From a virus: a stretch of DNA of 45,187 nucleotides. A model generated the notes under the pieces. The model did no database searches and was not told where the DNA came from. It worked only from the letters and a program-made list of their open reading frames with translations. The stretch spans positions 1 to 45,187 of IMG/VR virus record IMGVR_UViG_3300032046_000054; one strand, 5' to 3'. Made by a program: the position numbers and the translations under genes. Positions 4,807 to 38,682 of this stretch are shown piece by piece (the first letter of the stretch is position 1; the number at the start of each line of letters is the position of its first letter).

Positions 4807-4861
4807 TTTCCTGGCAGCTGCCTAGCTTCTGGGTGGCTGCTCAGTTTCCTGGCGACTCTTC
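4805..4861. repeat. Three degenerate 19-bp tandem units
   Basis: Units begin at 4805, 4824 and 4843, each opening AG(T/C)TTC and carrying CTGG. Units 1 and 3 share AGTTTCCTGGC. They start inside the stop codon of the resolvase gene. Function unknown. Confidence 0.55.
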
Positions 4862-4936
4862 ATCTGTACGCTGCTTACCACTTCCTCTATGTAAGCCAGG
4901 ACAGAATAGCATAGGAAAATAGTGCCTAGAAAGCAC

Positions 4937-4958
4937 TTTAGATAGACTTTAGATAGAC
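4937..4958. repeat. 11-bp tandem repeat and nearby short hairpins
   Basis: TTTAGATAGAC occurs twice head to tail (one helical turn apart). It is flanked by AGTGC/GCACT (4921-4937) and by GCCACAG/CTGTGGC (4960-4966 and 4979-4985), both able to form hairpins. The stretch 4862-5090 holds nothing else convincing. Confidence 0.55.
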
Positions 4959-5090
4959 CGCCACAGTCTTGAAATAGGCTGTGGCTTATGCTTTACTATA
5001 TTCGAGGATGGAAGTCTTAAAAGGCTATGCGAAGGATGTGAATTTAGTGGAGAAGCTTACGAGATTTACATGCAAAAACTTTTTACTTCG

Positions 5091-5124
5091 AAAAATCTGG
5101 GTCCAAGCAAAAACCTAGATTTTT
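5091..5124. terminator. Bidirectional intrinsic terminator
   Basis: AAAAATCTGGGT (5091-5102) pairs with ACCTAGATTTTT (5113-5124) in a 12-bp stem with one G-T pair, ending in T5 on the plus strand and mirrored on the minus strand. The element CTGGGTCC...AACCTAG is repeated 28 bp further on (5125-5146). It would insulate the accessory control region from the primase operon. Confidence 0.6.
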
Positions 5125-5218
5125 CTGGGTCCGACCACAAACCTAGTTTCGCCAGCCAGGATCATTTCATCTGACCACATAATGCGATTTAACAGTATGT
5201 GTTTATGCAATTGAGAAT

Positions 5219-5237
5219 GGTAATGAGAATCATTATC
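5219..5237. promoter_or_regulatory. Fur-box-like operator
   Basis: The 19 bases GGTAATGAGAATCATTATC match the classical Fur box GATAATGATAATCATTATC at 17 of 19 positions. A weak promoter shape (TTGAGA at 5211, TATCGA 17 bp later) overlaps it on the plus strand. Host Fur with Fe(II) would repress it. The nearest downstream gene starts at 5634. Confidence 0.5.
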
Positions 5238-5270
5238 GATTACCGGATCACATAATGTGAATTTACATTT

Positions 5271-5343
5271 TGTCCAATGTTGTCTATTGGACAATCCAAA
5301 GCAGACAATGTGTCCAATGTGACGTCCAATTGGACACATTGTC
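5271..5343. promoter_or_regulatory. TGTCCAAT inverted-repeat operator cluster
   Basis: TGTCCAAT (5271-5278) faces ATTGGACA (5286-5293). A perfect 15-bp inverted repeat, GACAATGTGTCCAAT (5304-5318) and its complement (5329-5343), follows with a 10-base spacer holding one more GTCCAAT half-site. That is five half-sites in 66 bp. Then come GATTTGAT (5354) and a GATAC/GTATC hairpin. This looks like a repressor or partition-protein binding array; the binding protein is not identified. Confidence 0.6.
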
Positions 5344-5549
5344 AAGTGTATCCGATTTGATACGACATTGTATCATATTTGCAACAAGTATGAAAATAAG
5401 TGTACAACCGATCGCTTTTGTGCTAGCAACAAAATAAATGTGTACAACGTGAAGAAAGTGTGCTATTCGTGCGCTTATTAATAGGCATTCTCATCCGCAC
5501 TCAATAGGTTTTATCTATCGAATCGCATCAAGCAATAAGTTTATTTGTG

Positions 5550-5611
5550 TGTACAACTAAAATAAATCAATACATAATAGACTCATCAAATCAAGCAACA
5601 CACGATTTGAT
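5550..5611 (+). promoter_or_regulatory. Promoter and operator unit 1 of the accessory island
   Basis: TGTACA (5550-5555), 17-bp spacer, CATAAT (5573-5578), then CTCATCAAATCAA. ATCAAATC (5585-5592) faces GATTTGAT (5604-5611) across 11 bases, an operator-like inverted repeat just after the expected start site. TGTACAAC also occurs at 5401 and 5441. Two sister units lie at 5895 and 6682. Confidence 0.65.
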
Positions 5612-5633
5612 AATTTAACAACAAGGGAACAAC

Positions 5634-7130: not shown

Positions 7131-7536
7131 TAGTGACAATCAAGTGGGGCCATGGGGCCCTACGCGATGCGAATGGATGACGGACGCCGTCCGCACCCGA
7201 TTCTCGTTATCAATTGGGAAACCCTCATTGGAGGGCATACTCAAATCGAGTTGTCAACGTAAATATTACCATCACTTCCCTCACTCAATAGGTATTGATA
7301 GACGTTATCAATGGGGCGGGAGGGGGGGGGGGGCGAGCCAAGCGGGCTGCCGGACGCTAGTCGCATTCAATTTTTCAATCAGTTCACTTTGTACTATCTA
7401 ATATATCGTATCCTAATTTTTCTAGATCACTCCATTAATCATCTAATATACTTTCATCCTCCAGATTCCTCCAATAGCTCCTATCAGTATCTAACATATT
7501 TATCGACACTCTAGCTACTCTGAATCGACATAAAGC
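7131..7536. other. 406-base gap with G12 tract and hairpin
   Basis: No credible gene. The first 200 bases are GC-rich and unlike the phage core, with the odd-length palindrome CGGACGCCGTCCG near 7183-7195. ATTGATA/TATCAAT forms a short hairpin just before 7312, followed by runs G4, G3 and G12 (7322-7333) that could fold as a G-quadruplex. The remainder (7370-7530) is pyrimidine-rich on the plus strand and AT-rich, with nothing recognised. This gap marks the right edge of the accessory island. Confidence 0.55.
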
Positions 7537-37118: not shown

Positions 37119-37693
37119 AGTGATACTTCCTTCTTAGGATCAAAACCATTTGCAATAAGTACTTTATCAATATTAGGTCCAACCCAACCTGCTGGTTTAA
37201 CAATATCAAAACCATTGCCATACTTGCTTGTTTTTGGGTTGCCACGTTCTTTACGCATATTGGCTTCGTGTACTTCCAGAAACAAGTCCATAAATGGGTA
37301 GCGTAGGTAATAGCAGATACGTCCACACAGATAAAGAACCGAGACAAGGTGCTCTGTATTGATTATCTTATTTTCAATACAAAGTGTTGCAAGCGTACGC
37401 ATTGAGTCTTCTTCAGTGTAGTCGTCTGCGTAGTACACTCGGTTATCTACAAATACTGGCTGTGCTATACCAATCAAATACAATGTACCAATGGCAATGT
37501 ATAGGATATCAACAAGTGCATCTGCACGGTCATGCACAGTCTTTGCGTCAAGAAGCTCTTGACCTTCTTCAGCAAGTCGCTTGATACGCAAGTCAAGCAT
37601 ATCACCTGTTAACTCACGAGGACCGTCAATGTACTGTAGGCCAAACTTAGTGTGGAAGTCATGGATAAGAAGCAATGCGTTAATTGATGACAT
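37115..37693 (-). CDS. MazG-like nucleoside triphosphate pyrophosphohydrolase
   Basis: 192 aa. RIKRLAEEGQELLDA (Glu42, 43, 46) and DALVDILYIAIGTLYLIG (Asp58/62 region) form the all-alpha NTP pyrophosphatase site; VHEANMRKERGNPKTSKYGNG and DIVKPAGWVGP at the end are like phage members of this class. It hydrolyses (d)NTPs to NMPs. Coupled to the dCMP-type synthase, a dCTPase role feeding dCMP to it, as T4 gp56 does, is likely but inferred. Promoter at 37752-37724. Confidence 0.78.
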   Translation of the reverse strand: MSSINALLLIHDFHTKFGLQYIDGPRELTGDMLDLRIKRLAEEGQELLDAKTVHDRADALVDILYIAIGTLYLIGIAQPVFVDNRVYYADDYTEEDSMRTLATLCIENKIINTEHLVSVLYLCGRICYYLRYPFMDLFLEVHEANMRKERGNPKTSKYGNGFDIVKPAGWVGPNIDKVLIANGFDPKKEVSL

Positions 37694-37723: not shown

Positions 37724-37752
37724 ATTATAACGCACTTATACGAATTTGTAAA
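37724..37752 (-). promoter_or_regulatory. Promoter of the nucleotide/polymerase operon
   Basis: Minus strand TTTACA (37752-37747), 17-bp spacer, TATAAT (37729-37724). It lies just downstream of a terminator and 31 bases before the MazG-like start; probably drives MazG, synthase, clamp and polymerase genes. Confidence 0.75.
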
Positions 37753-37760
37753 TCCGGGAT

Positions 37761-37789
37761 AAAAAAGAAGCCCACCAGGAGGCAGGCTT
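37761..37789 (-). terminator. Intrinsic terminator of the structured RNA unit
   Basis: Minus strand AAGCC (37789-37785) pairs with GGCTT (37772-37768), with inner CC/GG pairs, followed by C and T6 (37766-37761). It ends leftward transcription before the MazG promoter. Confidence 0.7.
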
Positions 37790-37827
37790 TAAGACTACGA
37801 CAAGGAAAACTACATGCTAGTGAGACT

Positions 37828-37909
37828 CACCAACATCTGACAAGCCTGGGATCGAACCAGGGTAAGAGAACGCGTCGCTTATACCTTGTTATCTTGTCAG
37901 ATGTTGGTG
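37828..37909 (-). ncRNA. Structured RNA candidate 1: 17-bp stem enclosing a tRNA-like T-arm
   Basis: CACCAACATCTGACAAG (37828-37844) and its exact complement (37893-37909) form a 17-bp stem. Inside, the minus strand reads CCTGG-TTCGATC-CCAGG, a perfect tRNA T-stem/loop, placed directly next to the 7 bp TGACAAG/CTTGTCA as in a tRNA acceptor. Only 31 bases separate acceptor and T-arm, too few for both D- and anticodon arms, so it is not a normal tRNA. AAGGTA may be a D-loop remnant. No protein frame fits. Confidence 0.55.
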
Positions 37910-37983
37910 CTCGCTACTTTCCCGAGCTGTTCATGTTGGTGTGGGCCACAGTGTAAGCAACACCGTATCGGCACTATTGTTTT
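37910..37983. other. Linker with further hairpins between the two stems
   Basis: TGTTGGT and ACCAACA, repeated from the flanking stems, can pair across this segment, and minus-strand CCG-ATA-CGG, GTGT-TGCTT-ACAC and GTG-GCC-CAC give a cloverleaf-like set of small hairpins. These could compete with the two long stems. No gene. Confidence 0.4.
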
Positions 37984-38095
37984 ACCAACATTTCTGTATG
38001 CTAATCCACTCGTGTCGTTTGAAGCGCTCGTGGGTGGAAACCGGCACAGTGACAATTCACATATCTCTTTCGAGTTAACATACAGAAATATTGGT
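37984..38095 (-). ncRNA. Structured RNA candidate 2: 17-bp stem with 78-base loop
   Basis: ACCAACATTTCTGTATG (37984-38000) pairs with CATACAGAAATATTGGT (38079-38095); the one irregular pair is G-U on the minus strand but C-A on the plus strand, which supports minus-strand transcription. The inner CCACTCGTG/CGTGGGTGG stem, however, has its G-U pairs on the plus strand. It shares CCAA(C/T)AT with candidate 1. No protein frame. Confidence 0.5.
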
Positions 38096-38104
38096 GCTAG
38101 GTAG

Positions 38105-38137
38105 TTTATACTCCGCCTAGCCGGAGTCGCCTGTCAA
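38105..38137 (-). promoter_or_regulatory. Unusual promoter candidate with dyad in a long spacer
   Basis: Minus strand TTGACA (38137-38132), 21-bp spacer containing ACTCCG/CGGAGT, then TATAAA (38110-38105). A start near 38098 would begin exactly at the structured RNA. The spacer is too long for plain sigma70; MerR-type activators work on long, dyad-bearing spacers. Confidence 0.3.
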
Positions 38138-38140
38138 GGA

Positions 38141-38611
38141 TTAGGCTGCAGTTGTTTCATCAGCTTGGGTAGGAGCTGTAGCAGCTTGGGCAGCAGCAAC
38201 TTGCGCCTGGAGTTTAGCCAGTTTATCAGCTGCTTTCTTACCGTCTTCAATCACTTTAGCTGCTTTCTTGTCAGCACGTTCTTGTTCACGCTTTGCCTTG
38301 GCTTCTGCTTTTTCGGCGTCTTTCTTTGCCTTCTCGGTAGAAGCTGCTTTAGCCAGGGTTTTGTTGGTAGCTTTGCGCCAGTAAGTAAGCTGGCTGGAAA
38401 CAGTACCATTTGACATAGTTGTTTCAGCAGTCAACTTGGCGATAACATCGCTTGAAGTCTTACCTGATTCAACAGCCAAGTCAGCTGTGTCCCAAACCAT
38501 ACGAGCACCAGTGCCAGCAGCTGGGTAAAGAACGCCACCAACTTCTTCTTTGGTTTGACGTGATACTTGGATCTTGTGGGTAGCTTGCTCGGTAACTTGT
38601 TCTTGTGACAT
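38141..38611 (-). CDS. Protein with Lys/Ala-rich coiled coil, possible DNA-binding (156 aa)
   Basis: GGAG before ATG 38611 and its own promoter at 38682. The N-terminal 75 residues (LYPAAGTGARMVWDTADL...TMSNGTVSSQLTYWRKAT) resemble phage/plasmid proteins with a winged or AraC-like small helical domain in which TVSSQLTYWRK is a recognition-type helix. Residues 80-135 are a charged coiled coil (KKDAEKAEAKAKREQERADKK). The end is Ala/Thr rich. Probably oligomeric; function unknown. The structured RNA region forms its 3' neighbour. Confidence 0.65.
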   Translation of the reverse strand: MSQEQVTEQATHKIQVSRQTKEEVGGVLYPAAGTGARMVWDTADLAVESGKTSSDVIAKLTAETTMSNGTVSSQLTYWRKATNKTLAKAASTEKAKKDAEKAEAKAKREQERADKKAAKVIEDGKKAADKLAKLQAQVAAAQAATAPTQADETTAA

Positions 38612-38653: not shown

Positions 38654-38682
38654 ATTATACACAAGAACACTTCCTACGTAAA
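38654..38682 (-). promoter_or_regulatory. Promoter of the 38141-38611 gene
   Basis: Minus strand TTTACG (38682-38677), 17-bp spacer, TATAAT (38659-38654), then GAATTCATTAC. It shares TATAATGAA with several other promoters in the window. Confidence 0.75.

Follow-up and report, generated by a model that had tools for sequence, protein, structure and literature searches.

A stretch of 366 nucleotides (nt) on the minus strand of the virus record IMGVR_UViG_3300032046_000054 (38127 to 37762; the full record of 45,187 bases was analysed and is called the window) encodes no protein and very likely gives rise to a series of linked, folded RNA elements, as judged from its sequence. With a probability of about one half, this RNA unit is a noncoding array of stem-sealed RNAs, in part mimicking transfer RNA (tRNA), which is co-transcribed with the gene upstream and whose members would act in trans as decoys. 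The array holds a conserved fold, module A, and a tRNA-like element with a sealed acceptor end, module B, and its parts follow on the minus strand in the order hairpin hp0, module A, a 43-nt segment, a ACCAACAT strand (37940-37933), hairpin hp0', module B and terminator (Table 1).

A gene-free unit with two long stems had been described here in the initial annotation, and on these points the description stands: between the gene end at 38141 and the gene start at 37693 just short overlapping open reading frames (ORFs) are present, and two long inverted repeats are found, repeat B (37828-37844/37893-37909) with 17 base pairs (bp) at 100% and repeat A (37984-38004/38075-38095) with 21 nt at 90%. 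Both share the word ACCAA(C/T)AT, and the further ACCAACAT words, likewise seen before, are located at 37933-37940 and 37984-37991. Apart from stem B, the window contains no perfect inverted repeat that reaches 16 bp with a loop of at most 150 nt, and no comparable repeat arose in 60 Markov resamplings of 45 kb. Equally, the predicted fold of the whole unit (-126.7 kcal/mol) is more stable than that of shuffled sequences (-100.9 +/- 5.0 kcal/mol; z = -5.2), with none of 100 shuffles being as good. The two exceptions to Watson-Crick pairing in stem A are G-U pairs on the minus strand, which points to an RNA of that strand.

A conserved fold and a sealed tRNA-like element

Homologues of module A were searched for with an 18-nt piece of its core against viral contigs, where five loci matched. 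Real homologues are present in L001 (IMGVR_UViG_3300020045_011081) and L014, while L012, L013 and L015 were rejected as chance matches in which the fold is missing. The core is nearly identical in the window, L001 and L014, with the closing stem largely replaced. Analysis of these three sequences with RNAalifold finds double changes that preserve pairing in 9 of 46 pairs; within a 28-pair subset, 98.8% of the cells pair versus 88.6% in shuffles and no more than 50% when the partners are slid, a level that 0 of 500 shuffles reach. By these measures module A is a conserved fold with a closing helix maintained by compensatory change, and the conservation of stems in relatives that had been proposed as a check is thus seen for module A in L001 and L014. 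The core has been kept in phages with differing gene neighbourhoods, and the comparison of the three sequences places a 2-nt insertion or deletion within it, which speaks against coding. As a separate observation, an odd tRNA-like unit (TTGACG...GTAGGTTCGAATCCTAC-ACGTCAA) is located directly before module A in L014 (L014:8145-8242), with genes of the terminase side and of the lysis side around it.

Stem B has a tRNA-like geometry that had not been noted in the initial annotation. The T-arm at the tip of module B, with a TTCRANY loop, abuts TGACAAG/CTTGTCA in the exact geometry of T-arm and acceptor stem, stacking on a 7-bp acceptor stem as in a tRNA. The acceptor helix, however, runs on for 10 further pairs, so that neither a free 3' discriminator nor a CCA end is left in the uncut RNA. 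A normal D-arm and anticodon arm were not found in module B, the body of which is with 31 nt too short, and neither did ARAGORN call a tRNA nor Rfam give a match there. A true tRNA is therefore rejected on account of the missing arms, the sealed end and the silence of the tRNA models; by its predicted geometry module B is a tRNA-like element with its acceptor end sealed, and not a tRNA.

The orthologous site and a wider scaffold in phages

At the same place L001, whose MazG protein is 64% and whose 156-amino-acid (aa) protein is 81% identical to that of the window, carries a 1.4-kb array composed of module A, more long-stem modules, a canonical clasp unit (described below), the hp0' block and a tRNA-Met(CAU) having its acceptor stem extended to 16 bp, followed by a terminator and a promoter. 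Among cultured phages, Erwinia phage SOI901 possesses a tRNA-Pro and a tRNA-Gln at this site together with modules of 22 and 24 bp. The same gene order is present in Rosemountvirus/Loughboroughvirus-type Salmonella and Escherichia phages, where the arrays contain modules of 13-28 bp and T-arm-like hairpins, one module having kept its payload with four stem pairs changed on both sides; the array of BP63 is matched by 60 phage records. Blastn matches to Nipunavirus were set aside as they fall under the neighbouring gene (query 857-941, equal to window 38256-38340), outside the RNA, and a DNA polymerase scan of viral contigs found no relative. Two side observations concern these arrays: a conserved module in L224, L225 and L227-L230 has TTATCCACA, a DnaA-box consensus, in a small hairpin, and some small ORFs of ZCSE2 and SE4, two Salmonella phages, have been annotated on the strand opposite to the RNA array (L227:186-461 and L228:158-481) and are possibly spurious.

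The linker hairpin common to L001 and L014, ATGCGYAGGCTGATGCGC, served as the starting motif for a wider family, with at least 120 matches in viral contigs versus about 4 estimated by chance. Its clasp unit consists of a helix strand of about 9 nt, hairpin hp1, a payload of about 25-220 nt, hairpin hp2 (GCCGGAGATCAGCACCGGC) and the complementary strand. Among 51 sequences, selected for clasp pairing, double changes occur in 8 of the 9 pairs of the clasp helix and the whole structure beats 500 of 500 shuffles; without selection for pairing, a mean of 7.83 of 9 clasp pairs is formed versus 5.86 with shuffled partners. The stem variants GCAC/GTGC (in P1) and ACGC/GCGT back hp1 itself. The hp1 and hp2 loops GCUGA and UCAGC are complementary in all 51 sequences and nearly invariant, and scanning the clasp hairpins for loop-loop pairs found no loop covariation, its redundant matches being dominated by one GCTGA/TCAGC pair; kissing of the two loops, neither favoured nor disfavoured by covariation, is only a suggestion. 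The same clasp strand can also pair upstream in a helix of at least 14 pairs in 68 of 172 loci versus 2 of 285 control positions.

The scaffold is present in 74 genome contigs, mostly of Gamma- and Betaproteobacteria; 172 phage records match a 30-nt query over 80% or more of its length, and the HK620-type scaffold occurs in 107 of 5,426 E. coli genomes. Its settings are the interval from Q to the holin and lysis genes in lambdoid phages, with the HK620 member between the annotated pR' and the terminator tQ, and the vicinity of tRNA genes in other phages including P1; in L127 a terminator directly follows the array. Extended-acceptor, sealed tRNA-like units are found beside the clasp scaffold in L140, L048 and L055. 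The wider scaffold has no match in Rfam, similar arrays in hundreds of phage and prophage sequences, P1 included, are unannotated, and the hp1 and hp2 sequences were not found in the text of 5.4 million papers, subscription papers and most preprints excepted, such that an earlier description may exist. A transfer-messenger RNA reported by ARAGORN in L137 spans the array and is taken as an artefact.

Several members show features of their own. In P1 (L218:1655-2224; AF234172) the annotated ORFs plp and upl are antisense to the array of clasp and long-stem modules, which follows tRNA-Asn and tRNA-Thr; plp and/or upl may not be genes. In AF234172 this array spans about 69,500-70,240. Two T-arm motifs stand in tandem in L211 and in L145, there on the minus strand 45-100 nt ahead of hp1; after the first T-arm comes a hairpin that could supply the two acceptor strands in exchanged order, as in a permuted tRNA. 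In Klebsiella phage UPM 2146, 3.3 kb without annotated genes upstream of tRNA genes (L138:2406-5742) are full of stems of 13-23 bp and T-arm-like payloads.

Transcription unit and proposed mechanism

The window has the gene set of a tailed phage, including primase, terminase, portal, tail-fibre, DNA polymerase, clamp, thymidylate synthase, MazG-like and helicase genes, and its long genes beyond about 33 kb are on the minus strand. Here the RNA unit is placed between a 156-aa gene, whose product has no match in Pfam, and the MazG-like gene (37693-37115). The T6 terminator noticed at its far end is confirmed. A promoter of its own, also proposed before, is not supported: TTGACA...TATAAA does precede stem A, but its spacer has 21 nt, and it is missing from the list of the consensus scan; it is equally not conserved, as TTGACA is missing in L001 and TATAAA falls in the loop of a conserved hairpin. 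Upstream of the 156-aa gene, the hexamers and the spacing of a sigma70-like promoter are the same before the orthologous gene in L001 (L001:3070-3098), so that this promoter probably leads an early-type transcription unit with the RNA as its 3' part. Sigma70-like sites in the region are no more numerous than in shuffles, and this site is weak by itself. A strong site downstream of the terminator serves the next operon.

Table 1. Features of the RNA unit and its surroundings in the window
Feature	Position	Strand	Basis or remark
Sigma70-like promoter TTTACG-17-TATAAT	38654..38682	-	10/12 in consensus scan; heads transcription unit with the RNA
156-aa gene, PHROG 28664 (unknown function)	38141..38611	-	Upstream of RNA, probably co-transcribed
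Hairpin hp0, GCTAGG...CCTAGC, ahead of module A	38096..38121	-	Fold prediction; kept in L001
Module A, 112 nt, closing helix of 21 nt (38075-38095 + 37984-38004), conserved core	37984..38095	-	
Segment between ATGTTGGT (37984-37991) and ACCAACAT (37933-37940)	37933..37991	-	Possible alternative 8-bp pairing
Hairpin hp0', GCTCG-GGAAAGTAG-CGAGC	37909..37927	-	Part of 33-nt block common to window and L001
Module B, perfect 17-bp helix around tRNA-like element	37828..37909	-	Inverted repeat, fold, acceptor-geometry scan
T-arm CCTGG-TTCGATC-CCAGG, tip of module B	37845..37861	-	Window's only such motif, both strands
Intrinsic terminator, 9-bp stem + T6	37762..37789 (37789 to 37768 + T6)	-	Found by sequence scan
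Sigma70-like promoter TTTACA-17-TATAAT	37724..37752	-	11/12; next operon (MazG-like, thymidylate synthase)

Elsewhere in the window, the sole other perfect inverted repeat that reaches 13 bp is located at 5304-5343 within a gene-poor stretch (4807-5633), and a run of G at about 7320-7335 is possibly an assembly artefact.

In the proposed mechanism, transcription would run from the promoter at 38682 through the 156-aa gene and the RNA to the terminator at 37768, with each module folding while it emerges during synthesis of the common transcript. The long helices might subsequently be cut by RNase III-type processing, and possibly by RNase P, to release stable RNAs. As the tRNA-like geometry together with the sealed end suggests decoys for tRNA-handling proteins, the freed RNAs may act in trans by binding such proteins as unchargeable decoys, with host tRNA-cleaving defences or enzymes of tRNA maturation or modification as conceivable targets. 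In tracking host targets, the payloads would then evolve more quickly than the scaffold.

Alternative readings and known systems

The reading as an array of sealed, partly tRNA-mimicking RNAs is favoured by the compensatory changes in module A and by the T-arm in acceptor geometry on the sole long perfect repeat; by the tRNA-Met of L001 with its 16-bp acceptor helix, the tRNAs and long-stem modules of SOI901 and the 60 BP63-type records; and by the sealed tRNA-like units beside the clasp in three loci, the density of T-arm motifs and the parallel to T4 rnaC discussed below. Several points weigh against it. The array in the window phage and its relatives is known from sequence only, and the putative decoy role is drawn from analogy. 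The comparison of module A comprises three sequences; module B has no sequence homologue, and its helix is predicted from the window alone. The enrichment of T-arm motifs, whose density on the strand of hp1 rises about 10 times in its surroundings, takes in ordinary tRNA genes. Finally, the clasp model R1 (hp1 and hp2 with GCUGA and UCAGC loops in the clasp helix) has no match in the window, the best score in the unit being 6.8 bits, in comparison to 33.3 bits for L001.

The window is hence not counted among the clasp family, but it is of the same design, with a hairpin, a long stem-closed module and the order of complementary linker strands. The segment at 37933..37991 lies where relatives carry the clasp unit, here without canonical clasp hairpins. 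The link to the family is drawn from L001 and L014, which have module A plus clasp hairpins (fused to it in L014), from the shared hp0' block and from the order of parts. It can tentatively be suggested that modular RNAs form an undescribed class that is widespread in phages of Proteobacteria and has the window as a divergent member, with interchangeable, often tRNA-like payloads in sealed stems and clasp-unit linkers with two-register strands, which might form a trans-acting (anti-defence) or self-assembling armoury.

Small RNAs or a switch of mutually exclusive helices had been envisaged in the initial annotation. The former idea has gained from the compensatory change, the fold z-score and the tRNAs and structured RNA at the orthologous site, without support for a promoter of its own. 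Of the latter, the capacity of the middle strand to pair either way stands, but a switch function is unlikely, as the upstream helix dominates and the following gene has its own promoter. As a general explanation, a cis-acting transcription switch, in which the middle strand pairs upstream first and, after cleavage or ligand binding, downstream, the exchange setting termination or antitermination, is unlikely. The CA-GT-CA order of strands in the window, the dual complementarity recurring across the wider family, the terminator directly after the unit in the window and L127 and the site of the HK620 member between pR' and tQ would suit it, and the immunity RNAs of phages P4 and P1 are a precedent for control of termination by strand exchange. 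However, the alternative of 8 bp is much weaker than the 21-nt upstream helix, a switch would not need long conserved payloads, and there is no gene to regulate here; in the window and L001 the promoter of the next operon after the terminator makes read-through needless.

It is quite improbable that modules and complementary loops fold or oligomerise into an RNA-only particle or cage, as in GOLLD and ROOL. The complementary loops of the two clasp hairpins in 51 of 51 sequences, the niche beside tRNA islands shared with GOLLD and ROOL (PMC12286853) and complementary strands that would permit intermolecular pairing speak for it. Against it, the clasp hairpins are missing in the window, their loops lack covariation, and the unit of just about 350 nt has no Rfam match to GOLLD or ROOL. 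Very little probability is given to decay of tRNA genes, by which the site would be a tRNA slot and the modules functionless pseudo-tRNAs and hairpins: L001 and SOI901 do have real tRNAs at the site, D and anticodon arms are missing from module B and rivia has lost part of one module, but compensatory stem changes, a perfect 17-bp helix with T-arm and a module A core conserved across different gene neighbourhoods argue otherwise. An element acting as DNA (cruciform, replication or recombination site), to which long inverted repeats and the DnaA-box-like TTATCCACA of the Rosemountvirus module would be suited, is highly improbable in view of G-U exceptions on one strand, the T-arm motif, the co-directional terminator and tRNAs in the same slot.

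Phage tRNA islands are known to harbour abundant RNAs that have no established function, such as T4 rnaC and rnaD, GOLLD and ROOL. The modular kind considered here, with more than 170 phage records and the laboratory phage P1, is absent from Rfam and apparently undescribed, and the question of what tRNA-like phage RNAs do becomes testable in E. coli K-12. Annotation would equally be affected, because several predicted ORFs overlap the arrays. The suggested search of Rfam returned no known family at gathering or relaxed thresholds, only tRNAs in relatives and sub-threshold chance matches.

Among known systems, the lambda late-leader (6S) RNA and StxS resemble the HK620, PAJU2 and E. coli prophage members, which lie between Q and the lysis genes; the window unit differs in following a gene of unknown function in another kind of phage. 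In the P4 CI RNA and the P1 c4 RNA, which are processed from a leader, one segment is complementary to two flanking ones. The window has likewise three complementary strands, but with long stem-closed payloads and tRNA-like modules and without a regulated leader gene lacking its own promoter; Rfam models of this type have no match in the window, and such antisense control of termination is unlikely, as the terminator is followed by an independent promoter. Two further candidates were rejected as relatives: the most abundant transcript of Vibrio phage ICP1, a noncoding RNA from L217:98-1108 (PMC7567579), is strongly structured by prediction but the long-stem grammar was not seen in it, and the Pas small RNAs of E. 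coli (PMC13192938) are other prophage RNAs. GOLLD and ROOL are structured phage RNAs near tRNA islands with unknown function, tRNAs being sometimes inside GOLLD (PMC12286853); the window unit shares this niche but has smaller modules and another architecture, and their covariance models do not match it.

A close parallel is T4 rnaC (species 1 RNA), which is expressed from the tRNA cluster of T4 as a stable RNA, is late in T4 (PMC9697503) and has no known function (PMC9697503, PMC3014915). With 139 nt, an acceptor-like pairing of about 8 bp in the scan and no 17-bp seal it differs from the window unit, a putative stable RNA to which no sequence relation is shown. Nevertheless, in the sequence scan rnaC ends in a perfect T-arm, and both RNAs combine a phage tRNA site with a T-arm on a body that is not a tRNA.
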